Shown here in pieces: positions 9,967-63,371 of a stretch of DNA of 64,000 nucleotides. Made by a program: the position numbers and the translations under genes. The notes below the pieces were generated by a model. The model was not told the DNA's origin. It did no database searches and worked only from the letters and a program-made list of their open reading frames with translations. Position 1 is the stretch's first letter. Every line of letters begins with the position of its first letter. The stretch is from contig NZ_OU659204.1 in assembly GCF_915403165.1 (NCBI RefSeq), positions 2,604,001 to 2,668,000 of the forward strand, read 5' to 3'. This DNA comes from Providencia alcalifaciens. Lineage in GTDB: Bacteria > Pseudomonadota > Gammaproteobacteria > Enterobacterales > Enterobacteriaceae.

Positions 9967-10044
9967 TCATCCATCCACACTCGAAAAGTTGATTATTACG
10001 AAATGTTAAAGTGACTGCAAATTGAATCTGATATTAATCAATAA

Positions 10045-11333: not shown

Positions 11334-11362
11334 TTTAATATTTTCTATTAATTATTTTACTC

Positions 11363-11395: not shown

Positions 11396-11616
11396 ATCAA
11401 AATAAACCATTTTTATATTTTTAGTTCCATTTTATTCGCAGGCTATCCACTTTGAGTAACACTTAAAGCTCTTGATTATTCTGCCTGTCCTCATCATTTT
11501 TTCGCTGAGCATCTCCTTTCACTCATTCATAATTCAGTGTCTAATTGATTTACTTCAGTGTAAAATGGCGTTCGAAAACGTATACTACTGGTTTGAATCT
11601 AATATAACTAATTGAA

Positions 11617-11877: not shown

Positions 11878-12005
11878 TTTCACAAACACACTGAACAAGT
11901 ATGTTAAAGCGGCGATGGCTGAGTTCTGCGTTATTCAATTTTTGTTTTACTAAAAACACCCATCCGTTGAAGTACTATTTCATTAACACACTATTTCATT
12001 GAAAC

Positions 12006-29680: not shown

Positions 29681-31135
29681 TTAACTTAAGTTCATTAGCT
29701 TATAGACCTTCTCCCTCATTGCCCGGCTTTCATTAGTTAACGATTCTGCTTTTATCATATGATTATCTAAAATATCTCGGCAGCTATAACCCTGATTATT
29801 TTCCATTCGCCAATCTGCACCATTCGATAATAATAATTCAGCAACATCTAAAGAGTGACTATTTAAAGCATCATGCAACGGGGTATTTCCCAAATTATCT
29901 CTCACATTGACCATTAAACCATTACTTAGCAAAATTTCTGATTGAGCCACTCTCCCGCTTTGAGCCGCTAAATGTAAGACTGTTTTTTGCTGAGCCAACT
30001 GCATTTTTTTAATCCCCTGCCCGTATGGAGACTCCAATAATACTTTTATAAATTGGCTATTACCTGCACGAACAGATTGCATTGCGAGTTTATCAATATC
30101 ACAGTGCTTATTTTTCATTGAAAGCAGCACTTTAAATTCACTGATATTTTCTTTCTTAATTGAATTTTTACAACTTTCCTGCCAATTAAAACTTTGTTTT
30201 AGCTCTACGTTAGGAAATTCATTCAACATAGAATCCGCTGTTTTATCAAATTCACCTGTAATCGCATTCCAATTATTCCATGGTTTATGTTTGCACATCA
30301 TCCTAATAATCTTAAACATTGAATGTGCAATAAAGCTCCTGGTCAACAAACGGTGTGGTAACCAGTCTTTCCAAGAATTATGTTCGCTGTAAGCCATTTT
30401 GATACGATTTCCCAACGCAGAAGGGATTGGTAACGTGTTTTGAAATGCATCAAGCCAATCATATTGAACAGTATAAAAGCGTATCAAACCTTCATCTGCT
30501 TGTTGCTTAGCAATGTTATAATCCATTCCAATTTTATGTACTGTATTTTGAGCAAGCCCTGAAGGACTAAATGAAATACAAGGTGATTGACTCGCCAATC
30601 CGGCTATTGATGCAAGGCCGCCCCCTAGAGAGTGCCCTGTGCAGATAATATTGCCTTTCACGGCTCGATATAGAATATTCGTTAACCCCACTGCCTGAAA
30701 GAATTGAGGCTCATAATATCCTAGCCCTTGCCGAATATTGGCATAAAAATCGACAATATCATTCGTTCCCGCAAAGCAAATAATATACAGACCATTAAAA
30801 CAACAAATATTCGATTGAAAACCTGTAAATTCATTATTTAAAAGTTCTGCATCTATACCTAATTCATTAATTTTTGACGCGCTAAGCTTTTCTATTCCTT
30901 GAATATCACGCCAATTACGATGATAGGCACCTTGTGATAGTAACGCTAAAAGATAATCTTTATTCTGTGCATCTCTTCCTAAAAACTCCTCTTTCGTGAC
31001 ATTCTTAGGCCATTTATCTCTAAAACTGCATGATGAATCTAAAAATGTATTTTGTTGATATAAATTTAAACCTTCCTCAACAAAAGAAAGTTCATCCTTA
31101 CTTACTGTCTGCTGTATTGCTGTACTAAATGGCAT
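29681..31135 (-). CDS. Class 3 lipase-like protein with C-terminal ankyrin repeats
   Basis: 484 residues. The N-terminal half is an alpha/beta hydrolase: nucleophile elbow GHSLGG (residues 167-172, Ser169) preceded by FAGTND (121-126) at the oxyanion position, as in fungal-type class 3 lipases. The C-terminal part (about 345-470) holds ankyrin repeats (TVLHLAAQSGR…, NTPLHDALNSHSLDVAELLLSNGAD). No signal peptide is visible. Lipase-ankyrin fusions occur among secreted or injected effectors, but no secretion gene or immunity gene is adjacent, so the role is unknown. AT-rich relative to its neighbours. Confidence 0.75.
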   Translation of the reverse strand: MPFSTAIQQTVSKDELSFVEEGLNLYQQNTFLDSSCSFRDKWPKNVTKEEFLGRDAQNKDYLLALLSQGAYHRNWRDIQGIEKLSASKINELGIDAELLNNEFTGFQSNICCFNGLYIICFAGTNDIVDFYANIRQGLGYYEPQFFQAVGLTNILYRAVKGNIICTGHSLGGGLASIAGLASQSPCISFSPSGLAQNTVHKIGMDYNIAKQQADEGLIRFYTVQYDWLDAFQNTLPIPSALGNRIKMAYSEHNSWKDWLPHRLLTRSFIAHSMFKIIRMMCKHKPWNNWNAITGEFDKTADSMLNEFPNVELKQSFNWQESCKNSIKKENISEFKVLLSMKNKHCDIDKLAMQSVRAGNSQFIKVLLESPYGQGIKKMQLAQQKTVLHLAAQSGRVAQSEILLSNGLMVNVRDNLGNTPLHDALNSHSLDVAELLLSNGADWRMENNQGYSCRDILDNHMIKAESLTNESRAMREKVYKLMNLS

Positions 31136-31226
31136 AAATTCTCCCTAACAAATGCTGTATGCTGGAAGAATATTGAAATATAAATAGCCAAGGGGGGAAA
31201 TAATCAACTTTGTTAGGGGCAAATAA

Positions 31227-31252
31227 AAAAGCCATTGAGAACAATGGCTTTT
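31227..31252. terminator. Terminator of grcA
   Basis: Perfect 11-bp stem AAAAGCCATTG / CAATGGCTTTT with a 4-nt loop, beyond the grcA stop. The T run follows on either strand. Confidence 0.85.
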
Positions 31253-31295
31253 AGAATTTATTAAGATAAGAGATCTATTGACCTCTTAATATTTA

Positions 31296-31679
31296 TTACA
31301 GGCTTTCAGTGAAAGTACGGGTAATAACGTCACGCTGTTGTTCAGGCGTTAATGAATTAAAACGTACTGCATAACCAGAAACACGGATAGTTAATTGAGG
31401 ATATTTCTCTGGATTTTTTACTGCATCTTCTAATGTTTCACGGCTTAATACGTTAACATTTAAGTGCTGACCACCTTCTACACGAACAGTTGGTTTCATT
31501 TCCAGAGGAACTTCGCGGCTCTCAAAAGCACCTAATTCATCTTTAGGAACAACCTGGCCTTCGCTATAATCTGCTTTCGCACACACGCAACGAGCTTCAT
31601 TTGTCTCGCTATCGATTAACCAGAAAGAGTTCAGCAGTGCTGCATTGTCACTTTTAGTAATTTGAATACCAGTAATCAT
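31296..31679 (-). CDS. grcA: Autonomous glycyl radical cofactor GrcA
   Basis: 127 residues. It replaces the damaged C-terminal glycyl-radical segment of pyruvate formate-lyase. The radical site is Gly102 in [12 protein letters not shown] 31679 is chosen (GGAGG 5 nt upstream), giving MITGIQITK as in Escherichia YfiD, which is also 127 residues. An ideal FNR site upstream predicts induction without oxygen. Confidence 0.96.
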
Positions 31680-32018
31680 CTCGACCTCCACGTTCGAATC
31701 AGATTTTGATCAATCTTTGCTAACTGTTTTTAATCGCTGTTGATTGGACAATTGGTCTAACCAACCTATTTAACTAATATATACCAGCTAGAACCCCTAT
31801 ATTCTTTGATATTTATCAAATATTTCGTATGGTAATTAACCAAGTCAGTGCATCTTCATGATTTAAATCAATATTCACATTTAGATTTTTTAATTATTTT
31901 TGTAAATTTTCAAATTAATTTTAAATACTTTGAGTGGGTTAGCGCAGAACAACACTTTATCTCTACGTCATGAACCAGTAAGCTACGAACTATAAAACAC
32001 ATCACTATGGGATCATTC
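31680..32018. other. grcA-ung divergent intergenic region
   Basis: 339 nt. It contains the FNR promoter of grcA and its roughly 90-nt leader. No gene is seen; the ung promoter was not resolved. Confidence 0.5.
31777..31819 (-). promoter_or_regulatory. FNR-activated promoter of grcA
   Basis: TTGATATTTATCAA (31806-31819) is a perfect FNR box. On the minus strand a -10 TATATT lies at 31782-31777, which places the box near -42 relative to the expected start, the class II activating position. This matches the FNR dependence known for Escherichia yfiD. Confidence 0.85.
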
Positions 32019-38335: not shown

Positions 38336-38699
38336 GGGGCTGATTCTGGATTCGACGGGATTTGCGAAACCCAAGGTGCATGCCGAGGGGCGGTTGGCCT
38401 CGTAAAAAGCCGCAAAAAAATAGTCGCAAACGACGAAAACTACGCACTAGCAGCTTAATAACCTGCTTAGAGCCTTCTCTCCCTAGCCTCCGCTCTTAGG
38501 ACGGGGATCAAGAGAAGTCAAACCCAAAAGAGATCGCGTGGATGCCTTGCCTGGGGTTGAAGCGTTAAACTTAATCAGGATAGTTTGTTGATGGCGTGTC
38601 TGTCCGCAGTTGGCAAATGAAATTAAAGACTAGACTAAGCATGTAGTACCGAGGATGTAGAAATTTCGGACGCGGGTTCAACTCCCGCCAGCTCCACCA
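38336..38699 (+). ncRNA. ssrA: tmRNA (SsrA)
   Basis: 364-nt transfer-messenger RNA. The 5' end GGGGCTGATTCTGGATTCGA and 3' end …GGTTCAACTCCCGCCAGCTCCACCA pair to form the alanine-tRNA-like acceptor and T arm. The resume codon GCA at 38426 opens the tag reading frame ANDENYALAA, ending at TAA 38456-38458, identical to the Escherichia tag. It rescues stalled ribosomes with SmpB. Its 3' end is a common integration site, and an island follows directly. Confidence 0.98.
38676..38699 (+). other. Candidate attachment site (attL) in the ssrA 3' end
   Basis: GTTCAACTCCCGCCAGCTCC, the T-arm and acceptor end of ssrA, recurs in degenerate form at 46884-46903, with AT-rich mobile-type genes between. The pair is interpreted as the borders of an integrated island. 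Confidence 0.5.
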
Positions 38700-38707
38700 A
38701 TTAAATC

Positions 38708-38742
38708 AAGGGGTTGCGTGAAAACGCAGCCCCTTTGTTTTA
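38708..38742 (+). terminator. Terminator after ssrA
   Basis: AAGGGGTTGCGT…ACGCAGCCCCTT stem (from 38708) with a GAAA-type loop, then TTTGTTTTA. Confidence 0.88.
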
Positions 38743-38808
38743 TCTAATGTCCACTTTGTGACTGCCACTTATAATCAAGCTCAATCACCTCCCCATCATG
38801 ATCTCTTT

Positions 38809-40242
38809 CTAACTAGATCGCGGAGCTAACACCTCGCGGTTACCATTATGAATCGGCTCACTGACTATACCGTTAGATTCTAACTGTTCAACGATCATTG
38901 CCGCTCTGTTATAACCGATTCTAAATTGCCTCTGAATACCTGAAATAGAAACGCGCTGTTGCTCTACAACAAATTCAGTTGCTTGATCAAATAATGGGTC
39001 AAGCTCTTCCTCTGACATACCACTATTCTGGGCATCATTATAAAGATTAAGATAACTCGCACTTCCCCATCGTTTACAATAATCGACTGTATCCCTGATA
39101 TCTGAATCACTCACATAAGTACCTTGAATCCTAGTCGGTTCAGATAAACTCGGTGATGCGAATAGCATATCCCCCAAACCAAATAGTGATTCTGCACCAT
39201 ACTGATCAAGGATTAAATTAGAGTCAGCCCTAGAGGACACAGAAAGAGCAATGCGTGTAGGAATATTAACTCGAAGCTGTGTGCCAATACTGGTGGATAA
39301 AGGGCTACGAGTTGTCAGAATTAAGTGAATACCAACCGCATGACCTTGCTGGCTCAATAGAACCAACATTTCTCCTATTTGCTTATATTCACCAATAAGT
39401 TGGACGTAATCATCAACACAAACAACAATTTCAGGCTCACAACCTAAATACGGATGCTCACTGTCACTTTCTCTAGGACGCCAGAAAGGATCAGGCAAAG
39501 GCATATTTAGCTCTTTCGTATTTGATATTACTTTATTGTATCCACTCAAATTACGTTGATTTAATGCGCCAAATAATTTTTGACGGCGCTGCAATTCCGC
39601 GACCAAAAACGTTAATGGATTTATTGACTGAATAGGAGCAGAGATAACAGGAAATAATAAGTGAGGTATATCGTTATATAAGCTGAGTTCAAGCTGGCTT
39701 GTATCAAACATCACAAAGCGAACTTTATCCGGCGAGTTTCTGTATAAAATGCTCATTACCAAGGAATGCATTAACATTGACTTGCCTGAGCGCGTCACGC
39801 CTGCAATAAGTAAATGCGGCATTTGAGCCAGATCCCAACCAATTGGATCTCCAATAATATCTTCGCCTAACATGACTGAAAGAGAGGATAAACCACCACT
39901 TCCGCACCATACATTAAAGCACTCAGCAAAAGGTACTACTCGACGATAAGTGTTAGTAACGCGTAACCCGATACAAGGCGTCCCTGCAATAAAATCAATG
40001 ATTTTTATATCAACGACACTCAGGAAGCGACACAACTCTGGCACTAGCGCCGTCACTTGAGATGCTTTTATCCCCCTGCCCAGCTCGATTCTAAAGAGTG
40101 TAAATGTTGCGCCTTCGTCATAGCCGACAACCTCTCCTCTTATTTGGTATTGCAGAAAGCAAGATTCAATAGCACGAGCCATCATATCTAGCTCTTGAGG
40201 TGACCAACAAAACACAGAAGTATGAATAAACGGTTGTGACAT
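38809..40242 (-). CDS. Soluble FtsK-like DNA translocase, truncated paralog
   Basis: 477 residues corresponding to the C-terminal motor half of FtsK. Order: alpha domain, RecA-like beta domain with Walker A AGVTRSGKS (147-155; FtsK has GTTGSGKS) and Walker B VVCVDDYVQL (273-282; FtsK has VDEFADL, so the catalytic Glu is Asp here), then an FtsK gamma winged helix (about 405-477, DPLFDQATEFV…ISGIQRQFRIGYNRAA…HNGNREVLAP). There is no membrane domain or linker. ATG 40242 has AGGAG 7 nt upstream. It follows a small membrane protein by about 40 nt. Not the housekeeping FtsK; its function is unknown. Confidence 0.8.
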   Translation of the reverse strand: MSQPFIHTSVFCWSPQELDMMARAIESCFLQYQIRGEVVGYDEGATFTLFRIELGRGIKASQVTALVPELCRFLSVVDIKIIDFIAGTPCIGLRVTNTYRRVVPFAECFNVWCGSGGLSSLSVMLGEDIIGDPIGWDLAQMPHLLIAGVTRSGKSMLMHSLVMSILYRNSPDKVRFVMFDTSQLELSLYNDIPHLLFPVISAPIQSINPLTFLVAELQRRQKLFGALNQRNLSGYNKVISNTKELNMPLPDPFWRPRESDSEHPYLGCEPEIVVCVDDYVQLIGEYKQIGEMLVLLSQQGHAVGIHLILTTRSPLSTSIGTQLRVNIPTRIALSVSSRADSNLILDQYGAESLFGLGDMLFASPSLSEPTRIQGTYVSDSDIRDTVDYCKRWGSASYLNLYNDAQNSGMSEEELDPLFDQATEFVVEQQRVSISGIQRQFRIGYNRAAMIVEQLESNGIVSEPIHNGNREVLAPRSS

Positions 40243-40284
40243 CAAATTTCTCCTGAATAACTATTTATCTTTTAATATAAGGAA

Positions 40285-40839
40285 TTATCGGGAAAACTGA
40301 TAATCAATCATGTATGCCCCCATAGGGCTCGTTTTTACTCTGACCCAGAGCACTCCTGTATTTTTCAACGTTTTCGAGTTTGGCTCTTTGATGCAAGATA
40401 ATGTCCACCGGTCAGTATAGATTTCTTTTATCCATATACCATATTCACATCTACCCGATTTACCAACTCTCGGCCCTGGTGATACGATTTCATATTCTGT
40501 TTGGTAGCGAACTGTTTTATTTGCCAATGAATAGGCAAGCACATCAAATAGAGGCACGATAAACATAAGTCCAAGGAATCCGCCCCAAAGAAAATTACTA
40601 TATACTTGTTTTTTAGGGCGCAGAAAGGTACTCCAAACGCTGCCAATTACCCCAGTGAAAATGGCAAAAACAATAGAAATTGTCCATATTGGAAACCATT
40701 CGAATAACACAACATTGTCGCCTAAAAAAAACGACAGAAATAGATATGCTAGCCAATAGCAATAAAGGATAAAAATAAAATAAGTAGATAATGATTTTTC
40801 CTTGTTACCCTTACTGTATGATTTGAATTGATAGTCCAT
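40285..40839 (-). CDS. Small membrane protein of unknown function
   Basis: 184 residues, not recognised. Three hydrophobic segments (about 19-40, 50-72 and 83-105) are followed by a soluble C-terminal domain of about 75 residues containing Cys near 131 and 149. The sequence begins and ends with the word DYQF. It lies 42 nt upstream of the FtsK-like gene on the same strand and is probably co-transcribed. It might tether that motor to the membrane, but this is inference. Confidence 0.65.
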   Translation of the reverse strand: MDYQFKSYSKGNKEKSLSTYFIFILYCYWLAYLFLSFFLGDNVVLFEWFPIWTISIVFAIFTGVIGSVWSTFLRPKKQVYSNFLWGGFLGLMFIVPLFDVLAYSLANKTVRYQTEYEIVSPGPRVGKSGRCEYGIWIKEIYTDRWTLSCIKEPNSKTLKNTGVLWVRVKTSPMGAYMIDYQFSR

Positions 40840-41233
40840 AAAATTCTTACATCGCTAAAATACGCGCTTATATAGGCATTTATACTTAATTCACTTTAAA
40901 TTAAGCCAATTATTTTTATCATGAAATTACGGCCAAGTAGATACAGTCTTTACAAATAGGCAATCTATTTGGCTTCAATAAATTAAATCACATATTGTTT
41001 ATATCTGAAAATCTTTATGCCTTACTGATAAATAACACTCTATTTCACTCCATTGAAAAAATGTAAATTATGATATATCAAGTTAATATTTTTCTAATTC
41101 AAACGTAAATCCAGCATATAACAAGGTCAAATAAGCTCTTTATCACATAAATATCTAATGTGAGACACTTTCCTCTAGATAGCAAAAACAATGGCCTTAA
41201 GACTCAAAAACTATGAACCTTAATAGTAACTGA
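40840..41233. other. AT-rich gap in island
   Basis: 394 nt between the small membrane protein and the integrase remnant. Very AT-rich; no gene, RNA or repeat recognised. It should contain the promoter of the membrane protein/FtsK-like pair. Confidence 0.4.
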
Positions 41234-41818
41234 GTGATTTGCCCTCTATCACCTAAAGAAATCTCAGCCCTACTCGCTGCGGCAAGATACGAGCAATAGA
41301 AAAACTTATTTCAGTTTGCCATTAATACTGGGTTAAGAAGTTCTGAATTATGCGCATTGAGATGGAGCGATATAGATTTTTTAGAGAATACCGCACACGT
41401 GCAGTCCGCCAGCGTAGTAGGTGTTATTAAGAAAACCAAAACTAAAGCTGGTACCAGAAAGGTAGAGTTGAATAGTGAAGCCATGAACGCCCTAAATGAC
41501 CAAAAGCAATTCACGTTTATGAAAGATGGTGTAATTTTTGAAGACCCGAAAACAAATAAAGTCTGGGCAGGTGCTGATGCGATCAGGAAAAAAGCATGGG
41601 TACCGACGCTGAAAAAAGCAGGTATTCGATATCGCAATCCATATCAAACTAGACATACCTTTGCCACGAGGTATATCAGCCAAGGCGCTAATCTATTTTG
41701 GCTAGCAGGACAAATGGGGCATAAAGGGCCTGAGATGCTGTTTAGGCATTATCTTAAAGAGTATGACGGCTATACAGCTTATAATATTAAGTATCAAAAT
41801 TTCTCTTCAGCTAATTAA
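41234..41818 (+). pseudogene. Tyrosine integrase remnant
   Basis: C-terminal half of a phage/island tyrosine recombinase. From 41243 the frame reads PLSPKEISALLAAARYEQ, then a TAG at 41297, then continues as FQFAINTGLRSSELCALRWSD, the catalytic Arg I box. The R-H-x-x-R region (RNPYQTRHTFATRY), GH and final Tyr (FRHY) are intact. The N-terminal arm-binding and core-binding domains are missing, with a TGA just upstream at 41231. A residual ORF could start at TTG 41357 but lacks Arg I. The island is therefore probably unable to excise by itself. Confidence 0.85.
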
Positions 41819-41853
41819 TACTTCTTTTATCAGGAACTATATGAATATAAAAC

Positions 41854-41885
41854 GCCCTGAGATAGTTTAACTCGGGGCATATTTA
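41854..41885. terminator. Hairpin between integrase remnant and nuclease gene
   Basis: GCCCTGAG (41854-41861) / CTCGGGGC (41871-41878) with one G-U pair, AT-rich flanks. It could terminate either convergent transcript. Confidence 0.5.
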
Positions 41886-41929
41886 AATTAACATCAGCCT
41901 TTTAATGTGTGATATTTAGTATTATCATC

Positions 41930-43786
41930 TTATGCAAAATTCGCATTTAGAGGATAAGTATTTATATCAACTTCATTAACTTGTCGCCTAGTTAGATCAA
42001 CTATCTGAAGTAATGTATTTTCAAATTGACTATTACCAACAAACTCATCACCAGGAGAAATTGCTCCACATAATAAAAATGGTAGGGCAGGTTTTTCTGA
42101 AAAAACATCAAAATTACTATGATGAAAATCTCTTACTTTTGATTCTTCATCAGGATTTAGTATCATCAATCCTGTAATTATATTTTTAATATTTGAAATG
42201 GAGTGAAGCCCATGCAAATACTTAAGAGTTAAGTCAGGGAGATATTGAGTAAATGCTTTATCGGAATATGTATATTTTGCATCTAAAATAATATATTTTT
42301 CATTCTTGTAATTATCATTTATTTTAATAACAAAATCTGGTGATCTATTTGAAAATCGACTAGAACTAGAACGTTTTGATACCTTTCCATTATAAGTAGT
42401 CCACCCCTCAGTATTTATAAGCCCTCTAAAATCAACTTTAGGATGATTAACCATCCAATATTTTGGCTCATAAAACAAACTCAACTTTAGACCTTTTTCA
42501 ATGTTAATGCTAAATAATAATGATTCACTTACAGGTTCACTTGAAAAATTAGAATTATACTTTCTTTCTAAGATAGTCTTAATATAGAATAAAGAATAAT
42601 ATTCAAATAGCTTTGGAATACTCTGAATTGACAACAGCTCTTCTTGTACACTCCAATCAGGACTCCCAAAACGATACCAATCGACTATTTTTTTAAACAG
42701 TGATAAATATAAGGGATTCTTTTTGGCTTTCATCGTGAATGTAGGTATACCGACTATATGTTTTTTCGATGGTATTTTTTCAGTCAGCATTCTCTTTATA
42801 GAATGAAGATTAGTTAAAATAGATTTACATTTCAATATCTTCCTCTGGTTAATACACTTTTGAAAACGTTGAATTTGACTAAAGAAACTAATATACCCTA
42901 GAGGTGTTTCATTTACTTTATTGGTTTTTCCTTCAGGCATTTCAAAACCAAAAAGTAACATTGATGTGGTTTGAATCAAAGTATTTATAAAACCATAGAT
43001 CACCTGATTTTCATAAACATCTGAATCTTCCGTTGCCTTATGCTCAATTAATTTCCCAGCTATATAGAAACTATCATTGTATTCTAAAATAGCATGATCA
43101 ATACAATCAGTTTCAGAAAGTTCATCTATATTATTACAAAGCCATGATAGTGTAAGATCATCAACATTAGTGCTATCATTAGGATAAACATATTTTCCTA
43201 TCGTTGATAATTTAGTAATTGGTCTATTAACTATTTTCTTTACTAATATTGATGTTGTTTCTGTAATATTTTCAATTTGCTCAAGTAAGATTTCTGCAGG
43301 AGTATCACCATGCTTATAACCCGCTTGACGACGAGTTACTCTAAAGAAAGAACATAGTACTTCACTATCAACTCCAGCTAGAAATGAAAGCATTTTTTCC
43401 ACTCGCTCTGCATTTATTTTTCTCGCGAGAACCTCTACTGCTTGAAAGTTAACTATTTCGATGTTTTCTTCAGCTTTCAACTCTAAAGCTAATTCGGCAA
43501 TGCCATAATAATTATGAAAAATACATTCATAGTTGAACTTCCCTAATCTTCTAGGTTGCCATTTATAAATCCATAAATCATTATGCTGTTCAATCACTGT
43601 AGGTTGCATTTCATTTTCATATAAAAGTAAAGATACTCTATCGTAAAATAACTCACTAGAGAATGATATTTCGATAGCTTCATCTTCAAGAATGAAAACA
43701 GCTGACTTACTTTTAGATTCAACTAAGGGTAATTCAAAAGCGTCACCTTGACGCTTCCCTCCTAAAATTGATATTTTAATTCTCAC
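41930..43786 (-). CDS. McrC-like nuclease, DUF2357 plus PD-(D/E)XK
   Basis: 618 residues. The N-terminal and central region has the look of DUF2357 proteins: DVYENQVIYGFINTL (about 256-270) matches the family's ENRF-type helix, and KLFEYYSLFYIKTIL (392-406) the E-x-W-type helix. The C-terminal PD-(D/E)XK nuclease site is complete: PD at 483-484 and DAK at 502-504 (SPDFVIKI…YIILDAKYTY). It follows the AAA+ gene by 11 nt and would be its effector nuclease, as McrC is for McrB. The gene is markedly AT-rich. The target (DNA or RNA) cannot be read from the sequence. Confidence 0.8.
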   Translation of the reverse strand: MRIKISILGGKRQGDAFELPLVESKSKSAVFILEDEAIEISFSSELFYDRVSLLLYENEMQPTVIEQHNDLWIYKWQPRRLGKFNYECIFHNYYGIAELALELKAEENIEIVNFQAVEVLARKINAERVEKMLSFLAGVDSEVLCSFFRVTRRQAGYKHGDTPAEILLEQIENITETTSILVKKIVNRPITKLSTIGKYVYPNDSTNVDDLTLSWLCNNIDELSETDCIDHAILEYNDSFYIAGKLIEHKATEDSDVYENQVIYGFINTLIQTTSMLLFGFEMPEGKTNKVNETPLGYISFFSQIQRFQKCINQRKILKCKSILTNLHSIKRMLTEKIPSKKHIVGIPTFTMKAKKNPLYLSLFKKIVDWYRFGSPDWSVQEELLSIQSIPKLFEYYSLFYIKTILERKYNSNFSSEPVSESLLFSINIEKGLKLSLFYEPKYWMVNHPKVDFRGLINTEGWTTYNGKVSKRSSSSRFSNRSPDFVIKINDNYKNEKYIILDAKYTYSDKAFTQYLPDLTLKYLHGLHSISNIKNIITGLMILNPDEESKVRDFHHSNFDVFSEKPALPFLLCGAISPGDEFVGNSQFENTLLQIVDLTRRQVNEVDINTYPLNANFA

Positions 43787-43797
43787 CTAAATCACCC

Positions 43798-46347
43798 TTA
43801 AAAATATGAATATGATTCACTATATATATCGCCATTATTTATTATATTTTTTAAAGTTGCCTTAGATAAATTTAAATCAAGTTCAACTAGCTTTTGCTCA
43901 AGATTATGTAATCTTTCTTTAAAGCCTGTTCCATATCCTTCAATCAATGGTAAAATATGTTGATTAATAGCAAAATCTAGTGGCTGGATCCTTAAACCTT
44001 CAATTTCATTTGCCACATGACAATATCTCTTTATAGCATTATATTTTCTTTGGCTAACTATTACAGATGTTGTTCTATTAATTGGTGCTCTTAAAATTTC
44101 AATGATTTGCTCTAGTGAATTTTCTTCTTCAGTAGTAAACGAAGACTCATATAAACTAACATCAAAACACTCATCAAACGATTCGTTATGTATTGCTCCA
44201 TCAAAATCTATAGTTTTTAACAAACTAGATTTAAAATCTAAATTATGATTCAAGCCTATTACGGGAACACGATCTATCAATCGAGGAGATAAGCGCTCTG
44301 TAGATGCATCATTATTTATAGTTGCAATAAAACGTACCCCCTTGGAAACTTTTATGTATCGCTCTTCATCAGAAGGTATGCCCAAATCAATTTTTCTATT
44401 CCGTCCTTCAGGATCACACATACTTAAAAAATCAGACCAATAATGCTCAACACTAGAAAGATTTGCCTCATCTAATAAAATTAATTTTAGATAATCTTGA
44501 TTATGATCGCTTTTCAAAAATTCATAAAGCCCTGTTCTAGCTGGCTGATAAACATCTTTTAATGAATTATAAAAGCCTAATATGTCTCTACTTGAAACCC
44601 AAGCTCGCCCTACAGAAATATTAATAAAATTACTTGTGTTATGTGTATTCTCTTCATTAGTCAATCCCATACTTTGAGCAAGCCTAATTGCAGTAGAGGT
44701 TTTACCTGTACCTGGGGGACCTGCTAATATAGTCATAAAAGATTGATTTAAGCAAATAAGCAAATTGGCCATTTCATCAAATGAAAAATTTTTACCATTA
44801 TCATTACTAAATGAATCTATTATATAATTTATATAATCTTTTCTATTATCTTTTGTTAATTTTATCGTCGTTGGAGTTATTTTCGTTTTATATATATTTG
44901 GCGAACTCTCTTTATTTCTCCCACCATTTAACAATGTAGTTAAAGTTTTAATTTCAACAGCCTTCTCAAATAATTGAGGGGAATTTAAAGTCGCCTTTTT
45001 AAGATTAATAGTTTTTTCAACTGCCTCTTTTTCTTTATCTAGATCTTCTTTTAACCTTTTAAGATAATTTATTTCAGAAACTAATGAATCATAATCATTT
45101 ACTCTTGATAAAGTTGAATAAAAAGCCTCAAGCTTTTGGTTTGAGTCTGTTATTTTACTCTCTAGAGTGGTGTTTTCTTCTGTTAATGCTTGCTGTTTCT
45201 GTAGTAATATTTTATGTGCATCTTCTGCGGTTTGTTTCTTTATTCTTTCGATTTCATCTTTAGCTTTTGATTTTTCTGCTTCAACATTTTTTACTTCAAA
45301 CTCTAACTCTGATTTTTTACTTGAAATGAGTCTCTCTAACTCATTAAGCTCCTTATCTAATTTTATTTTTTGAATTCTTGTTACTTCCTCCAGTTCCTCT
45401 GATTTTTGTTTCACTAATAAATCTTTGTTTTTAGCAAAGTAATTATCTAAATAAAGCCTTCCATCTCTACTTTCAGCTAAAAATTCTTGAACTATTTCTT
45501 GACCAAATGGACTAGAATCTAAAAAGTCACCTAACAGTTCTTTAAGTCTTATCAATCGTTCACTATTCTCTAGAACTTTATTTTTTTTTACATATTCATC
45601 AATGCCTAGAGATAACTTTTGAGCTTCACTTTTTCCTAACGGATTTTTGTTCTTAGACACTCCGTTACCAAAACCATTTTTAGTGAAATATGATACTAAA
45701 CGAGTATCAGATATATAATCAACTTGCTCATAGGGTAGAATTGAAATATCTTTCAAGTTATTTATATAGTTTTTATTTTCACCTTTTATAGCCCAATCAG
45801 AAATTAATTTATTTTCGACTATACTTTTTAATTCTATTTTTGCAATATGGTCTTGTTTTAATTGTAATGGAGAAGGTGTTGATAATGGCGATAATTGCCA
45901 GTTGTTATCTTGTTTAGATGCTTTGAATGGACCATAAATATAATCATTATTTTCGATAAAAAATTGGTTACTCGATGCATCAATATCATGGCTAATATAA
46001 CCAGTTTTAATATCAGGAAGTTCAGATTTTATAATTGGAATAAAATAATTTCGCTCAAGTCTCTCTACTTTATTCCCTAGTCCAAAATGTTTTTGATATC
46101 TAGAGTTATTCTTCCAATCATCATCGTTACTTTCATAAAATTCAGTAAGAATGAAAAGCTCATCATTTCCAAATTGTTGGCTAATATTTGTAAATCCTTT
46201 AGATATAAATATTCCACCATTTGGAAAATCGTTAGGGTTTATTTTTTCATACTCTCCACCTTCATTTATATAGGCAACTGGAATAACTAATCCCATATCT
46301 GGATTAGATATATGGTTTTCTTCTTTAATAACTAACACCCTATTCAT
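43798..46347 (-). CDS. McrB-like AAA+ NTPase with long coiled coil
   Basis: 849 residues. An unrecognised N-terminal region (about 1-300) is followed by a long charged coiled coil (about 305-460, heptad-rich in Glu, Lys, Leu) and a C-terminal MoxR/McrB-type AAA+ domain: Walker A AGPPGTGKT (542-550), Walker B LILLDEANL (622-630), sensor region RFIATINND (672-680) and arginine-rich LSPRLIDR (686-693). The McrB guanine-recognition MNxxD is not exact, so nucleotide choice is open. It is the first gene of a two-gene operon with the nuclease. The arrangement resembles coiled-coil nuclease tandems related to McrBC defence systems. Confidence 0.8.
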   Translation of the reverse strand: MNRVLVIKEENHISNPDMGLVIPVAYINEGGEYEKINPNDFPNGGIFISKGFTNISQQFGNDELFILTEFYESNDDDWKNNSRYQKHFGLGNKVERLERNYFIPIIKSELPDIKTGYISHDIDASSNQFFIENNDYIYGPFKASKQDNNWQLSPLSTPSPLQLKQDHIAKIELKSIVENKLISDWAIKGENKNYINNLKDISILPYEQVDYISDTRLVSYFTKNGFGNGVSKNKNPLGKSEAQKLSLGIDEYVKKNKVLENSERLIRLKELLGDFLDSSPFGQEIVQEFLAESRDGRLYLDNYFAKNKDLLVKQKSEELEEVTRIQKIKLDKELNELERLISSKKSELEFEVKNVEAEKSKAKDEIERIKKQTAEDAHKILLQKQQALTEENTTLESKITDSNQKLEAFYSTLSRVNDYDSLVSEINYLKRLKEDLDKEKEAVEKTINLKKATLNSPQLFEKAVEIKTLTTLLNGGRNKESSPNIYKTKITPTTIKLTKDNRKDYINYIIDSFSNDNGKNFSFDEMANLLICLNQSFMTILAGPPGTGKTSTAIRLAQSMGLTNEENTHNTSNFINISVGRAWVSSRDILGFYNSLKDVYQPARTGLYEFLKSDHNQDYLKLILLDEANLSSVEHYWSDFLSMCDPEGRNRKIDLGIPSDEERYIKVSKGVRFIATINNDASTERLSPRLIDRVPVIGLNHNLDFKSSLLKTIDFDGAIHNESFDECFDVSLYESSFTTEEENSLEQIIEILRAPINRTTSVIVSQRKYNAIKRYCHVANEIEGLRIQPLDFAINQHILPLIEGYGTGFKERLHNLEQKLVELDLNLSKATLKNIINNGDIYSESYSYF

Positions 46348-46932
46348 AAGCTCTCTTTATCATAGTAATCAAACGCAATAATAACGCTATATATAATTTA
46401 CAATGGTTACCATATTGAAATAATAAAAATCATCAAAACTTTTACTGTTCACCATCAAGAAAAATCAATTAAATTCATTTAATTTCAATTAATTACAAAT
46501 AAAACATCATATTGTATCTTTAAATAATCTAATTATAATATCACTATTCCCGCTTATATCCACAGTGCTTCATCTATATTAGACATGCATCTCATAATTT
46601 AATTTTATGTACTATGCATATCGAATTGAAGAATTTCACTTAAGATTCATACCAACCACTAATGATGCTGAAATACTGAAAAACTTTAATAAGTTATATA
46701 GTTAGTCTTATTAAAGATAAAAAATAAGAAATTAGTTATTATTGCTGATTATGTAAAAATAATAATATTTTATACTGAATCAATTTGCATGGAGATGTAA
46801 AAAGAATTACCTAGATGTGCACATGATTTAGGTTACGTAAAAATATCTTTTCATAATCAATGCATTAAAAAATCACAGACTCAGTTCGACTCCCTCCAAT
46901 CCAGAAAAAACCAAAAGCCCGCCAATTAATCA
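46348..46932. other. AT-rich leader region and island edge
   Basis: About 585 nt, very AT-rich, no gene of useful length on either strand. It holds the presumed promoter of the AAA+/nuclease operon, the degenerate ssrA-end copy (46884-46903) and the left arm of a split terminator (46913-46920). Confidence 0.5.
46884..46903 (+). other. Candidate attR, degenerate ssrA 3' end
   Basis: GTTCGACTCCCTCCAATCCA agrees with the ssrA 3' end at 17 of 20 aligned positions (one gap). It is not part of a folded tRNA. It sits immediately before a terminator-like hairpin, as expected for the displaced downstream end of an integration site. Confidence 0.5.
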
Positions 46933-46979
46933 TGAAGTGACCCCCAATAGTTGGACAACCAATTACTGGGGGTCTTTTT

Positions 46980-47486
46980 ATGTCAAAATACAGTCGCGAT
47001 TTAAAAATTATCATTGCTAATCAGTGTCTAGCCGGTGAAGCATCTCGCAAGCTTTCAAGAAAATATTCAATATCTTCTCGGCAAATTCGATATTGGTCAC
47101 AAGTCGTTGCCATTCATGGCGATAACGCTTTCTTGCCCACACCCCATTTGCGTTGTGCAACTGCCAAATTTCAAGCACTTAAACTTATGTGGACAAACGA
47201 TTGGTCTCTCGGTCACACTAGCGCCATACTGAATTTAATTTCCCCTGGGATCTTATCTGTCTGGCTTGATAGATATAATAAAAATGGATTCAAAGGGCTT
47301 GAATGTGGACCCAGAGGACGACCGACAATGAAACACCCTCGTATAACACCAGTACGCTCTGATGATGAAAAAACACTTGAAGAACTCAAAGAAGAGGTTG
47401 CTTATTTACGTGCAGAAAATGCCGTTCTAAAAAAGTTGGAAGAGCTGGAACAGATAAAACGACGCCAAGCAAAGAAAAAACGTTAG
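46980..47486 (+). CDS. IS3-family transposase OrfA
   Basis: 168 residues. Two helix-turn-helix regions (about 14-35, EASRKLSRKYSISSRQIRYW, and about 65-105) bind the terminal repeats; a C-terminal leucine-zipper-like helix (LEELKEEVAYLRAENAVLKKLEEL) mediates multimerisation. It ends in a run of A (AAGAAAAAACG, 47472-47482) suited to -1 frameshifting into orfB. Confidence 0.92.
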   Translation: MSKYSRDLKIIIANQCLAGEASRKLSRKYSISSRQIRYWSQVVAIHGDNAFLPTPHLRCATAKFQALKLMWTNDWSLGHTSAILNLISPGILSVWLDRYNKNGFKGLECGPRGRPTMKHPRITPVRSDDEKTLEELKEEVAYLRAENAVLKKLEELEQIKRRQAKKKR

Positions 47487-47515
47487 TTGTTTTAGCTCTT
47501 AAAAATAAGTACCCC

Positions 47516-48328
47516 TTGAAACACTTACTTTATGCAGTAAGCCTTGCAAAAAGTGTGTTTTATTATCATGTTAGCGCACTTAAGAAACCTGCAAATTATG
47601 AGAACGAACTGACACGTATTAAGTCTATTTATTATGAGCATAAAGGGCGTTATGGCTACAGGCGTATTCATTTAGCGCTAAAAAATGAAGGCATTACACT
47701 CAATCATAAAACCGTTCAGCGGTTATTGGGACAACTTAATTTAAAGTCGACAGTTAGGCCAAAAAAATATCGTTCATACCGTGGTGATGTAGGTAAAACA
47801 GCGCCGAATTATCTTAATAGAGATTTTACGGCAACCAAGCCGAATGAAAAGTGGGTCACGGATGTGACAGAATTTAAAGTCAATGAACAAAAAGTTTATC
47901 TGTCTCCCATAATTGATTTATATAATCAAGAGGTTGTCGCGTATAAGGTCGCTAAAAATACACGCTTAACGTTGGTCACGGAGATGCTAAAAAGAGGTTT
48001 ATCTCGATTAACCAAAACACAAAATCCGTTATTACACAGCGATCAGGGTTGGCAATACCGAAACCCTAGCTATCAGAAACAGCTAGTTGATAATGGAATT
48101 AAGCAGAGTATGTCTAGAAAAGGAAACTGCTTAGATAACACAGTCGCTGAAAACTTTTTCGGCTTATTAAAATCAGAAATGTATCATGGGCATGATTTTC
48201 AAAATGCCGATGAATTAATTGAAAAAATTGACGAATATATAGAGTATTACAATACCAAACGGATCAAAGCCAAATTAAAAGGCCTGACTCCGGTTGAATA
48301 TCGAAATCAGGCCTTACAAGCCGCTTAA
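47516..48328 (+). CDS. IS3-family transposase OrfB (DDE integrase)
   Basis: 270 residues from a TTG at 47516, but the -1 frame is open upstream through the A-run at the end of orfA, so the natural product is probably the OrfAB fusion. An HTH_21 region (YYEHKGRYGYRRIHLAL) precedes the rve catalytic core: D in WVTDVTEFKV, D in LLHSDQGWQY and E in AENFFGLLKSE. The C-terminal YYNTKRIKAKLKGLTPVEYR is typical. All catalytic residues are present. Confidence 0.92.
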   Translation: MKHLLYAVSLAKSVFYYHVSALKKPANYENELTRIKSIYYEHKGRYGYRRIHLALKNEGITLNHKTVQRLLGQLNLKSTVRPKKYRSYRGDVGKTAPNYLNRDFTATKPNEKWVTDVTEFKVNEQKVYLSPIIDLYNQEVVAYKVAKNTRLTLVTEMLKRGLSRLTKTQNPLLHSDQGWQYRNPSYQKQLVDNGIKQSMSRKGNCLDNTVAENFFGLLKSEMYHGHDFQNADELIEKIDEYIEYYNTKRIKAKLKGLTPVEYRNQALQAA

Positions 48329-48441
48329 CTCAAAGTGTCCAACTTTATGGGGTCACTTCAATCGATGGGCTTTTTTTATATCCCACACAGCCTAATATAA
48401 CCTAACTACCCCAATCACTTTAGGCTTCCTCCAGCAACCCA

Positions 48442-58748: not shown

Positions 58749-60298
58749 TACGCTTTCTCCCCTTTCCAGACAAACTCACGTCCTAATAAACCTGTATTGG
58801 TACTGCTACTCGCCCAAATAACACCTGCGTCAGTGAGCATCTTGACCTGAGCATCCATCGATGGCGTATCTTGGTCAGTACCCAGCACATAGCCGAGGAT
58901 CACCAGTTCACGCCCTTCTTGTTTCGCTATCTCTTTTGCTGTTTTGATAGCGTCAATCATCACACCAACCGGATCTTCATGAGAGCCAAAGCCAAGCACG
59001 AAATCCATCATGATCACGCCAACTTCTGGGTCACGAGCTTCTTGCAGTAAACGTTCGATACGGTTTGTTGGGTCGATCATTGGGTGTGGCTTACCGTTGG
59101 TAAAATCATCATCACCAAAGTCGAGGAAGGTATGGGCGACACTTTTATTGATATCTTTCAGACGGAAGTCAGGGTTAGGCTGAATATTGCTGTAGACGTC
59201 ATCGTATTTTTCCAGCGCTGCAAACATTGCTTCATCACACAATGTACCGCCACAGAAAAGACCACGAATGTATTTTTGTTCCGGTTTGAGTAAAGCTCTC
59301 ACTTCATCAATCAATGGCAGATTGAGAGGATGAAGGTCTAAATCCTCTTTGCGAATGCCAGTCAGCAAAACGGCTTTCAGAGCAGCTTCTTTGGTGCTTT
59401 GGGCAAAGGTTAAGCCTGGTTTATCATCCGGCAACGGTTGGCTTCCTAAGAAACAAACCACCACTGGCTTATGGCATTTTTCAGCTTGTTCTAACACTTT
59501 TTTGGCAACCGCTGGCGCTGGTGGCTTAGAAATGAGCGCAATGACTTGGGTTTCATCATCCGCATCCAGCATTTTGAGTGCATCAATCATCATGATGCCA
59601 CCAATTTTTTCACTCAGGTCACGACCACCCGTACCAATTAGCTGAGAAACCCCCGCACCAAATTCATGGATGCGAACACTCAGTTCTTGGCTCCCTGTAC
59701 CGGATGCCCCAATAATTCCGATGCTACCGCGACGAACATTGTTACCAAAACACAGGGCTGTCCCATTAATGATCGCCGTTCCGCAGTCTGGCCCCATCAT
59801 TAACAACCCTTTTTGACTCGCCAACTGTTTCAGCGCCAGCTCATCGTCAATCGAGACGTTATCAGAGAACAGCATCACGTTGAGATCATTTTCGAGTGCA
59901 ATACGCGCTTCACGAGCCGCAAATTGCCCATTAACAGAAATAACCGCTAAGTTGGCATCAGGAATGTGCGTTTTTGCAGAATTAGTCGTGGCATATTTGG
60001 CTTCATGCTGCCCGCCACCTTGGTTTTTCTTATTAAACAGTTCTTCGATAGCAATCAATGTCGCATCATTGGCTTCATCACTAGGCCCTTTAATCACTAT
60101 CATTAAATCGCCGTTTTTTGCTTCTTCTAATTCCGGTGTTAATAAACCTAAGTTTCTTAATACGCCTTTATTCATTTCTGTTGCCATTGCCACAAATGCT
60201 TGCTCAACATTTTCAAGTTGGTTGGCTTTGGTGGAAATAGACATCAATGACACGGAATCAAAATAGGTATTCTTTTTTATGACCACTTTAGTCGACAT
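58748..60298 (-). CDS. yahF: FdrA-family protein YahF (acyl-CoA synthetase-like)
   Basis: 516 residues. A CoA-binding Rossmann-like domain and a succinyl-CoA-synthetase-like ligase domain are visible: GIIGASGTGSQELSVRIHEFG with GTGGRDLSE, as in the SCS alpha subunit, and GGTLCDEAMFAAL further on. FdrA proteins act as a subunit of carbamoyl-transfer complexes. GGAG precedes the ATG. It overlaps yahE by 11 nt. Confidence 0.88.
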   Translation of the reverse strand: MSTKVVIKKNTYFDSVSLMSISTKANQLENVEQAFVAMATEMNKGVLRNLGLLTPELEEAKNGDLMIVIKGPSDEANDATLIAIEELFNKKNQGGGQHEAKYATTNSAKTHIPDANLAVISVNGQFAAREARIALENDLNVMLFSDNVSIDDELALKQLASQKGLLMMGPDCGTAIINGTALCFGNNVRRGSIGIIGASGTGSQELSVRIHEFGAGVSQLIGTGGRDLSEKIGGIMMIDALKMLDADDETQVIALISKPPAPAVAKKVLEQAEKCHKPVVVCFLGSQPLPDDKPGLTFAQSTKEAALKAVLLTGIRKEDLDLHPLNLPLIDEVRALLKPEQKYIRGLFCGGTLCDEAMFAALEKYDDVYSNIQPNPDFRLKDINKSVAHTFLDFGDDDFTNGKPHPMIDPTNRIERLLQEARDPEVGVIMMDFVLGFGSHEDPVGVMIDAIKTAKEIAKQEGRELVILGYVLGTDQDTPSMDAQVKMLTDAGVIWASSSTNTGLLGREFVWKGEKA

Positions 60299-61211
60299 GT
60301 GTTTCTCCGAAATAATGAGTCAGAAACAGCGCATCGCGAATGCCAAATAGCATGTCGCAACCTGAACTAGACCCGATATTTAAAATCTCTAAAATTTGTG
60401 GATAAATATTTGTTTCTCGCCCATCAACTAAACACTGGATCAGTTGATGCATATTTTCGCGATACTCTTGGTTTAATGCTTTTTCTAACGTGATGGCACT
60501 GATAGGTGTTGTATTCGCCTTGCTTTGCGAAATTCCTTGATAAAAACTCTGATAGAAGGAATTCGCAGGGTGATGTTTCAACAACAAAAAAGCCATCAGT
60601 CCCACTAAATAATCATCTCCCGAAGGTGTTAACCCAATTCCTAACCCAACAAACTGGCTTACAATATTAATCAATGCTTGGTGCCGTTTATTGAAAAATA
60701 ATTTAATTAAACTAGAGCGTAATTCATTTAATTTCTTTGATGATTCAAGATAAAAATAATTCTCCCCTTGGTAGTTAAAAAGAGAGTGTGTTTTATCATT
60801 TAAAATAGAATCAATTTCGTTAATTTTAGACTGAAGAAAATAACGGTATTTTTCTTCGGTTAATTTATCATTAATAAAATAAACCGTTGGTGGGATCCAT
60901 TTCTTACATAATAAAAATGAAACAGCATATTTCTCACCAATATGAATTTCATTATTTAAAATACAAACAGAATCCCCCGCCATGATATTTAACGGTAAAA
61001 AATCCTTATTAATTATTCGGCAACTATTGGGTCCATTATCCGTTTGCGAACTAAGCAAGGTATAAAGTTGGTTATTAATAGAAAAATTAATGGCTTTATT
61101 GAATACTTGCTCGACATTCCCTGTTAATAATGGCTGATGCAAAAGATCCAAGAAATGCACATCAGCCGTTAACCCATAAATGTTTTGCCGCTGAGATTGG
61201 TGTCTGTCCAC
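60288..61211 (-). CDS. yahE: DUF2877 protein YahE
   Basis: 307 residues, DUF2877 family (related to YlbF/AllH). The diagnostic FVGLGIGLTPSGDDYLVGLMAF lies at about 187-208. The start is GTG 61211, preceded by AGGGGG. It is AT-richer in its middle. Probably the third subunit of the YahFGE carbamoyl-transfer complex; overlaps yahF and follows yahD by 18 nt. Confidence 0.85.
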   Translation of the reverse strand: MDRHQSQRQNIYGLTADVHFLDLLHQPLLTGNVEQVFNKAINFSINNQLYTLLSSQTDNGPNSCRIINKDFLPLNIMAGDSVCILNNEIHIGEKYAVSFLLCKKWIPPTVYFINDKLTEEKYRYFLQSKINEIDSILNDKTHSLFNYQGENYFYLESSKKLNELRSSLIKLFFNKRHQALINIVSQFVGLGIGLTPSGDDYLVGLMAFLLLKHHPANSFYQSFYQGISQSKANTTPISAITLEKALNQEYRENMHQLIQCLVDGRETNIYPQILEILNIGSSSGCDMLFGIRDALFLTHYFGETHVD

Positions 61212-61229
61212 AATCCCCCTTATGGGTGG

Positions 61230-61835
61230 TTACGCACCCGCTGCAATCAGTAATTCAGCGATTTCGTGATAGCCTTTTTCCTGTGCCAGCTCTAACGGTT
61301 TTTTGCCATATTTGTCCGTCATATGTGGATTAGCACCGTGCTCTAACAGCATTTTTACGATTTGCTGCTGTTTTACACCACCATCATTCAACACAATCGC
61401 TTCTAGCAATGGCGTCCAGCCGACAAAGTTGGTGTGGTTAACATTAATGTCCGTGTTTTCAAGTAATTCACGCACAATTTCCACATGCCCTTTTTCACTC
61501 GCTGGCGTGATCCCAACACCACCAAAACGGGTTAATAAATCTAAATTCGGGTTAGCAGGTAATACCAAGCGTAATAATGTTAAATCATTATTTAGGCAAC
61601 TTAATAAAAATGGGTTAAAACAGGTTTGATCTTGTTTATTAATATCAGCACCCGCATGAATAAGAAAATCAACGCACTCATAGTGCTGATTTAAACTGGC
61701 ATTCACAATAGCAGTTCGACCTTGGCGATTGGTGCTATTAATATCAACACCTTTTTCAAGGCAATTTTTTAAAATAGCTAATTGGCCTTGCTCTGCTGCT
61801 TTAAGAAAATCTTGAACGAGTGTGCTTTCTGTCAT
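61230..61835 (-). CDS. yahD: Ankyrin-repeat protein YahD
   Basis: 201 residues consisting almost entirely of ankyrin repeats (about five; for example NRQGRTAIVNASLNQHYECVDFLIHAGAD, and DKYGKKPLELAQEKGYHEIAELLIAAGA at the end). No signal peptide. ATG 61835 has GGAG 6 nt upstream; the frame extends to an upstream TTG without support. Position and type match Escherichia YahD. Likely a protein-binding scaffold for the YahFGE enzymes. First gene of the operon. Confidence 0.87.
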   Translation of the reverse strand: MTESTLVQDFLKAAEQGQLAILKNCLEKGVDINSTNRQGRTAIVNASLNQHYECVDFLIHAGADINKQDQTCFNPFLLSCLNNDLTLLRLVLPANPNLDLLTRFGGVGITPASEKGHVEIVRELLENTDINVNHTNFVGWTPLLEAIVLNDGGVKQQQIVKMLLEHGANPHMTDKYGKKPLELAQEKGYHEIAELLIAAGA

Positions 61836-62435
61836 AACGCTCTCCAAATTTAGCTATTTAAATTTCCAGATAGCCAAATTAAATATGAATTAAAGATTAT
61901 TTAGCATGGTTAGAGCATATCAATTGCCATTAATAAATAGAATCCATTTAAATTTAATTCATCAATCCGCCACCTTATTATTGATTTAAATTCAACAATC
62001 GAGCATTTTTGTGCGTGAAAGCATCCTTCACTGACCTTTATTGATGTTTTTTTGTCTGTTTTCTATGCAACTTGACCAAATTATTTTGTTAATCTGTTGG
62101 CCAATTTATTCTTTCTTCAATTTTGTGACAGCCATCAAATCAAAGGTTTTTAAATTGTTAACATTGTGATTTTTTTGTTTATAAACTCGATATCCCCTAA
62201 TGGTTATTTTTCCATTTAATTCAATAATATTAATTAGTTTGAATGTAAACATACGTTTCATTAGTTGCTTTTTGTGGTGACATAAATTAAATACTATTTA
62301 TTGTACAGAATAGATAAATATCCCCGCAGAGGGCTATCAATAATAATCGATAAAAAGCCTGTTTTTTAAGCTATTGAATTGTATTCACAGAAAATGTTAT
62401 TTAGGCTAATTTTTACACACTTTGGGACACGACAC
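61836..62435. other. yahD-yahB divergent control region
   Basis: 600 nt, AT-rich, no ORF supported. As a divergent LysR-target gap it should contain the YahB binding sites and both promoters, but I could not single out one T-N11-A site with confidence. AT-rich runs near 62040-62280 may be curved DNA. Confidence 0.45.
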
Positions 62436-63371
62436 ATGAACTCTATTTTTACCGAAGAAAATTTATTGACCTATACCACCGCCGCTAAATTTGCCAGTTT
62501 CAGTAAAGCGGCTGAAGAACTTGGGATTACTACCTCAGCAGTAAGCTACACCATAAAACGTATCGAAACCTATTTAGATGTCGCCCTGTTTATCCGCGAT
62601 ACCCGTAATATTGAGCTGACCGAAGCGGGATACTATTTTTATCGCAAAGCCACCGACCTTCTGAATAATTTTCATCTCATCAAAAAAAGTATCGATTCCA
62701 TTGAACAAGGGATTGAAGCCCGTGTTCGCATCTGTATCAATCAGTTGATCTACACCCCTTACCATACGGCGAAATTACTGCAAATCTTGAAAAAGCAATT
62801 TGGTACCTGCCAGATAACTGTTACCACGGAAGTGTATAACGGTGTTTGGGATGCCATTATCAATAACCATTCGGATATTGCGATTGGGGCTCCGGGTACA
62901 CTCATGGATGGCGGCGGGATTGATTACACAGAAATTGGAGCCATACACTGGCAGTTTGCGATAGCGTCTAGCCACCCTTTAGCCTTAATGCCTGAGCCAA
63001 TTGCCGAAAGCCAGCTACGCCTCTATCCAAATATTATGGTGGAAGATACCGCGCATACCATCAATAAACGCGTTGGGTGGCTACTGCACGGGCAAGAGGC
63101 AATTCAAGTGCCCGATTTCAACACTAAATGCCAGTGCCAAATCTTAGGTGAAGGGATCGGATTTTTGCCAGACTATATGGTCAAAGAACATGTAAAAAAC
63201 GGTGTCTTAGTCACTAAGCAAATACAAAACCCAAGGCAGGATTCTCACATGCTATTAGCCACTCAGCACTCTGCAACAGGGTTAGTCACCCAATGGATCA
63301 GAAAAGAATTTATGGCAAATGGGGTATTAACAGAGCTTTACAGTGACTTACTCAAGCCCATCGCCAATTAA
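62436..63371 (+). CDS. yahB: LysR-type regulator YahB
   Basis: 311 residues. N-terminal winged helix (about 3-62, AAKFASFSKAAEELGITTSAVSYTIKRIE) and LysR substrate-binding domain. ATG 62436 gives MNSIFTEENLL, the start I recall for Escherichia YahB, and the C-terminal half is nearly the same (YPNIMVEDTAHTINKRVGWLLHGQE). Divergent from yahDEFG, so it most likely controls that operon in response to the unknown substrate. Confidence 0.9.
   Translation: MNSIFTEENLLTYTTAAKFASFSKAAEELGITTSAVSYTIKRIETYLDVALFIRDTRNIELTEAGYYFYRKATDLLNNFHLIKKSIDSIEQGIEARVRICINQLIYTPYHTAKLLQILKKQFGTCQITVTTEVYNGVWDAIINNHSDIAIGAPGTLMDGGGIDYTEIGAIHWQFAIASSHPLALMPEPIAESQLRLYPNIMVEDTAHTINKRVGWLLHGQEAIQVPDFNTKCQCQILGEGIGFLPDYMVKEHVKNGVLVTKQIQNPRQDSHMLLATQHSATGLVTQWIRKEFMANGVLTELYSDLLKPIAN

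Follow-up and report, generated by a model that had tools for sequence, protein, structure and literature searches.

Coiled-coil nuclease tandems (CoCoNuTs) were defined by Bell et al. (2024, eLife, PMC11090510) as a coiled-coil-fused clade within the NxD branch of McrB GTPases. According to the main text of that study, Types I-A and I-C comprise two genes only, with immunoglobulin (Ig)-like domains on the nuclease component CnuC, and recognition of RNA was predicted for CoCoNuTs from their accessory domains. Section 7 of the same paper states that no NxD McrB GTPase had been characterized, and the matches listed in our literature search, which subscription papers mostly fell outside, included no study in which a Type I CoCoNuT was examined experimentally. 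Here we describe a likely Type I CoCoNuT in Providencia alcalifaciens, encoded in a stretch of 64,000 nucleotides of contig NZ_OU659204.1 (positions 2,604,001 to 2,668,000; this whole stretch is referred to below as the window). In the open reading frame (ORF) listing it is a gene pair in which a CnuB/McrB-like motor of 849 residues comes first and its partner, a CnuC/McrC-like nuclease of 618 residues, follows after a spacer of 11 nt.

The pair displays every feature of Type I CoCoNuTs that could be checked. As in CoCoNuTs of any type, the motor has an NxD motif instead of NxxD, a long coil N-terminal to the GTPase is present as predicted helices at residues 308-376 and 387-455, and an McrC homologue is encoded in tandem. 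The Ig-like N-terminal sandwich of Type I CnuC (RhoGDI-like in I-B and I-C) is predicted in the partner. Type I CnuB begins with a cold-shock-like oligonucleotide/oligosaccharide-binding (OB) fold, and in I-C a YTH-like domain often precedes the coil; the motor has beta-rich lobes at 3-107 and 117-210, both of them without a sequence match and with folds that were barely probed. The remaining types differ from the pair in their architecture: I-A motors carry a helical insert between Walker B and NxD that is missing here (D626 and N678 are 52 residues apart, against 54 for their counterparts in McrB of E. coli K-12), I-B encodes a separate coil protein, CnuA, with none fused to CnuB, whereas the long helices are fused in the present motor, and neither the UPF1-like helicase CnuH nor the effector CnuE of Types II and III was found among the island ORFs listed and scanned. 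The operon consists of two genes, with neither the insert of I-A nor the coil protein of I-B nor the helicase of II/III, and on this basis it is assigned to Type I, and probably to subtype I-C, by features rather than by tree placement. It is likely that the pair is a Type I CoCoNuT, most like I-C, that acts as a mobile anti-phage or anti-invader module. An earlier, sequence-only reading of the locus (the original prediction) had proposed it as an under-described system; it rather fits the Type I class as published in PMC11090510.

For the motor, the McrB-type AAA+ domain that had been proposed was confirmed, with a Pfam AAA match at residues 540-689 (E 1.8e-5). E. coli McrB was the best match when the single motor sequence was compared with solved structures (E 0.005), and it ranked top for the AAA+ domain in a fold comparison of the predicted model. 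A profile search against solved structures placed Lon first and did not list McrB at E<=0.001; the Lon, pachytene-checkpoint and dynein-like matches were put down to the common AAA+ fold. The motif N678-N-D680 shows a one-residue gap relative to NTAD of K-12 McrB in all 13 motor sequences compared, including that of the window. This comparison omits near-duplicates (L003, L005, L006, L009-L011, L016), L012, which is the same plasmid as L021, L053-L056, and the partial or AAA+-only matches L013, L014 and L023-L025. The coiled coil of about 150 residues that was originally predicted is retained as two long predicted helices, with a single Pro/Gly in 154 residues. Over the region as a whole, heptad periodicity is weak (equalled or exceeded by 163 of 2000 shuffles), as it is over helix 308-376 (250 of 3000); it is clear only for helix 387-455 (16 of 3000), so pairing of the predicted helices is less sure than their length.

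The partner retains an intact PD-(D/E)XK site, as was first suggested from P483-D484 and D502-A503-K504. Pfam PF04411 (PDDEXK_7) matches residues 393-506 (E 4.3e-5), P483, D484, D502 and K504 are invariant in alignments of 7 and 9 sequences, and the pattern P-D...D-[A/S]-K is kept in 12/12 partners. The helices thought to be DUF2357-like gave no match to Pfam DUF2357 at E<=1, and a profile of the partner found nothing among solved structures by sequence. In the fold comparison, McrBC entries came out on top, in agreement with the expected structural match to McrC, and relatives of 65% and 76% identity bear DUF2357/McrC-type RefSeq names; the assignment to DUF2357/McrC is made because of these fold matches and names. 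Among the PADLOC models, PDC-M26A (candidate system PDC-M26) matches 11 of the 11 motors scanned, covering only the helix/AAA+ part (308-662) of the window motor, and mad8 gives a weaker match to nine of them (best E 2e-6); none of nine partners was matched by any PADLOC model. Druantia I/II, described in PMC12458937 as a Type IV CoCoNuT, resembles the pair in that it contains a CnuB homologue whose coiled coil is extended; that account describes its CnuB as inactivated and includes a helicase of the YprA type, and neither applies to the pair.

The N-terminus of the motor had been taken for a single domain of 300 residues; this was not upheld, as two beta-rich lobes are predicted within about residues 1-215, followed by a helical linker to residue 306. 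No known reader domain and no Pfam or PDB match were found for it by sequence. Cold-shock, YTH and EVE folds were absent from the match rows of the motor model, but these rows were filled by the AAA+ domain and the lobes were thus barely probed. An Anti-LPS-SCYG match in the Pfam scan (E 0.04) was judged to be due to chance, as were adenylate-cyclase matches of the N-terminus with E values no better than 0.39. In one phage contig (L020), a 169-aa gene of its own (7060-7569) matches profile positions 19-148, about the first 150 residues (i-Evalue 3e-16, two sequences searched), just upstream of a shorter helix/AAA+ protein (7626-9644). In a viral contig (L023, 6866-9440), a helix/AAA+ protein of 488 aa is overlapped at its start by one of 388 aa that is weakly similar to the N-terminus (i-Evalue 5e-4), an arrangement that reflects either separate genes or a frameshift. 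When 394 genomes of the order were searched with the N-terminal profile, five had a match at E<=1e-4; four of these matches (the window's own and three others) front this motor over at least 650 residues, and the fifth lies less than 1.2 kb from a contig end and gave no motor match by tblastn. Between nearly all pairs of sequences, divergence is faster in the N-terminus than in the AAA+ part (L017-L018 being the exception), and domain swapping was rejected, as no pair with similar AAA+ parts and unrelated N-termini was seen. It is conceivable, though rather doubtful, that these 215 residues represent a new class of separable sensor that aims an McrBC-like motor and nuclease at a signal other than DNA modification, for example RNA or a ligand derived from translation or replication.

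By analogy with McrBC, a mechanism can be proposed in which the AAA+ domain would form an McrB-like ring and the long helices would hold the two beta-rich lobes outward as a sensor for nucleic acid derived from an invader. The partner would dock into the ring via its McrC-like helical part and stimulate hydrolysis of NTP, probably GTP, and target engagement would then license the PD-(D/E)XK domain to cut DNA or RNA. The presumed outcome is anti-phage. An RNA-directed mechanism is not supported at this locus: in the 38-49 kb part of the window, Rfam identified tmRNA and otherwise sub-threshold matches only, and a comparison of the region preceding the operon among six relatives gave no conserved stretch (best E 0.42).

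The pair is more than a chance observation: relatives spanning the full length of either gene were found repeatedly, at 20-89% identity, and under purifying selection. In L001, the motor has 89% and the partner 76% protein identity to those of the window; the proportions of nonsynonymous (pN) and synonymous (pS) differences in the motor are 0.059 and 0.67, corresponding to a ratio of nonsynonymous to synonymous rates (dN/dS) of about 0.04, with about 0.09 for the partner, both estimated with synonymous sites near saturation. The reported AT-rich setting and gene coordinates were confirmed, with a GC content of 0.28-0.31 across 42-47 kb (0.29-0.30 for the pair itself) versus mostly 0.40-0.49 in the rest of the window, which has a few other dips. 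At five loci in other hosts, the pair has a GC content of 0.31-0.39 against 0.49-0.59 in the flanks. Given the low dN/dS and the GC content below that of the flanks, the module is constrained where it is kept and compositionally foreign. Additional low-GC stretches of the window (0.34-0.37, at 10001-12000, 30001-32000 and 60001-63000) may be acquired segments.

The motor occurs sporadically. It was identified in only one of the 99 genomes of the relatives search, its own, and, at E<=1e-30, in three of the 369 genomes searched from its class, its own included, the other two matching over the helix/AAA+ part only. Among 5426 complete E. coli genomes, seven encode the pair, at about 80% DNA identity and all in one small island, which is bounded by yfgJ and a helix-turn-helix (HTH) regulator on the right in 7/7 and by der on the left in 6/7 (in the seventh, der lies beyond the fetched stretch). 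The island has an integrase in all seven genomes, broken by IS1 in one; in the one island scanned, the HTH regulator matches AlpA, and in one of the seven the annotation gives the nuclease gene in two pieces. A housekeeping role was rejected on the basis of these counts, in keeping with the original prediction.

Several relatives lie on mobile elements. Four loci from the genome collection represent three distinct ones, namely the E. coli-type island (L001, L003) and integrative and conjugative elements (ICEs) of Brenneria and Kluyvera, the latter with a PFGI-1-class relaxase; L003 is a short contig whose label, a Ligilactobacillus metagenome-assembled genome, is probably a misassignment. In the viral collection, the single window protein found no relatives and an alignment-based scan found 11 loci, and none of the INPHARED phage records matched the motor. 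In L015, which we take to be a P4-like satellite element, the pair directly follows the integrase, with DUF5375 and a primase-helicase downstream, and L016 has the same gene order. An integrase is also found upstream of the motor gene in L017. In L018, an anti-repressor gene precedes the pair, and genes for a DNA methyltransferase and an IetS-like protease come after it. In L019, the pair has an endolysin gene on one side, with terminase beyond it, and the gene of a DnaC-like loader on the other; in the phage contig L020 it is located between portal and endolysin/head genes, and in L022 between recombinase-like genes. In an Acinetobacter baumannii plasmid (L012/L021), the pair is followed closely by an MvaI-type restriction-modification set, by Vsr and by an ATPase with matches to PDC-M01A (1.9e-198) and Septu PtuA (4.3e-180), and then by an HNH gene. 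Of the records in the plasmid collection, 28 match the motor over at least 80% of its length and only four match the partner, presumably because the partner diverges faster. A broken relative was seen in plasmid NZ_CP072954.1 (L057, 6893-9379), where short neighbouring frames match the N-terminus and the C-terminal AAA+ part; it adjoins an IS903B element and lies near a mercury-resistance cluster, and a weak N-terminal match (E 9e-4) recurs in plasmids of Citrobacter, Enterobacter and Klebsiella, 23 records in all with that of NZ_CP072954.1. Carriage by satellites and phage contigs was found here, whereas the main text of PMC11090510 does not contain the words prophage or satellite. As the collections searched favour mobile contexts, these locus counts do not constitute an enrichment test. 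The proposal of a defence module is well supported in its mobile form by the defence genes and mobile elements beside several relatives, as judged from the context of single loci rather than by comparison with random genes.

Features of the gene pair, its proteins and the surrounding island (nucleotide positions in the window unless residues are given)
Feature	Position	Strand	Details
CnuB/McrB-like motor gene	43798..46347	minus	849 aa, ATG start
CnuC/McrC-like nuclease gene	41930..43786	minus	618 aa, GTG start
Motor, beta-rich N-terminus	residues 1-215		predicted structure
Motor, helical linker	residues 216-306		predicted structure
Motor, long helices	residues 308-455		predicted structure
Motor, AAA+ domain	about residues 490-849		Walker A 543-550, Walker B D626-E627, NxD N678-D680
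Partner, Ig-like beta-sandwich	residues 1-122		predicted structure
Partner, helical McrC/DUF2357-like part	residues 123-410		predicted structure
Partner, PD-(D/E)XK domain	residues 411-604		catalytic D484/D502/K504
tmRNA gene (ssrA), integration site	38336..38699	plus	ARAGORN; Rfam
Variable island at tmRNA gene	38701..48366	no strand	both flanks common to three sibling genomes
Stand-alone FtsK motor, island neighbour outside the pair	38809..40245	minus	478 aa; alpha, beta, gamma domains (Pfam)
Small protein in island	40285-40839	minus	184 aa; hydrophobic segments (by eye)
Tyrosine integrase, C-terminal remnant	41247..41818	plus	Phage_integrase 1.9e-11
IS3-family insertion sequence, right border of island	46933..48360	plus	two ORFs; NF033516 3.5e-95; 25-nt inverted repeats

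In the window itself, the pair resides in an island at the transfer-messenger RNA (tmRNA) gene, whose limits were set where synteny with three sibling genomes breaks on the left, where the tmRNA gene has its 3' end (base 38700), and resumes on the right, from about 48367. At the corresponding site these siblings have about 25, 47 and 76 kb of different DNA, and the sole stretch found in common is a piece of integrase (41247-41801), with one of them. Integrases of eight sibling genomes match the integrase remnant in their C-terminal part with 79-94% identity, and in seven of these genomes they are open frames of 391-399 aa. Second copies of the tmRNA 3' end were detected in 9 of 24 genomes of the genus and none in the window's own genome; since such a copy is missing and an IS3 element forms the right border, the island has probably lost its end. 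The tmRNA gene is described as a common integration site in PMC10121019, and for this reason, together with the second 3'-end copies in the genus, a functional link between the pair and tmRNA was rejected as the default. The same site holds other defence genes, including Type I restriction-modification, elsewhere in the genus. The tmRNA island of sibling G003 (L034, 2562-15668) encodes HsdM, HsdS, HsdR-like, DUF262/SspE-like and PrrC-like (PDC-S06) proteins, as well as an integrase-like ORF recognized by eye. The FtsK motor of the island is 48% identical to the C-terminus of the host chromosomal FtsK and perhaps has a mobility role related to XerCD/dif; an 88% identical copy lies about 14 kb from the tmRNA gene of sibling G011, and fragments occur in G017 and G021. 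For the 184-aa island protein, domain-library scans gave no family match above the cut-off.

Several other explanations of the pair were considered. The most serious of them is classical McrBC action, i.e. modification-dependent restriction in which the beta-rich lobes would read methylated or hydroxymethylated DNA, cutting would follow translocation, and the coil would be a spacer. The pair and the Type IV restriction system McrBC of E. coli K-12 have in common their gene order, the AAA+ and McrC/PD-(D/E)XK folds and the catalytic DAK, the nuclease site is intact in all 12 partners, and DNA methyltransferase genes lie near some relatives. However, all 13 motors have NxD and not NxxD, K-12 McrB is a protein of 459 aa with Walker A at 201 and thus has no room for the 300-residue N-terminus and long helices of the motor, and the motor N-terminus lacks a sequence match to a known reader domain. 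We regard this explanation as unlikely. A further difference from the K-12 system is the extra Ig-like domain on the nuclease.

It is much less plausible still that the pair serves the mobile element rather than the cell, as a maintenance or competition device that excludes, for example, rival satellites, prophages or plasmids. Its position as cargo beside the integrase of the satellite-like elements L015 and L016, and its presence on phage contigs and plasmids, would fit such a role, but relatives are kept in chromosomal islands too, and the distinction from defence is blurred, as PMC9122126 describes the hotspot next to the P4 integrase as a known location of antiviral systems. The possibility that the pair in this genome is a functionless remnant of a decaying island draws on the fragmentary integrase, the missing second tmRNA 3' end and the IS3 border, along with the nuclease gene in two pieces in one E. 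coli island and the broken plasmid relative; with both frames intact, all motor and nuclease residues in place and strong constraint against relatives, it is hardly credible.

As a Type I CoCoNuT, the pair would be an addition to a described but experimentally uncharacterized class. The compact, two-gene versions with an intact nuclease that reside on small mobile elements are practical test cases, and the relatives of about 80% DNA identity in seven complete E. coli genomes offer a single operon in a tractable host. The PD-(D/E)XK site is intact, whereas recognition of RNA is predicted for CoCoNuTs in PMC11090510, and such versions could show whether CoCoNuTs defend their hosts and whether DNA or RNA is cut.

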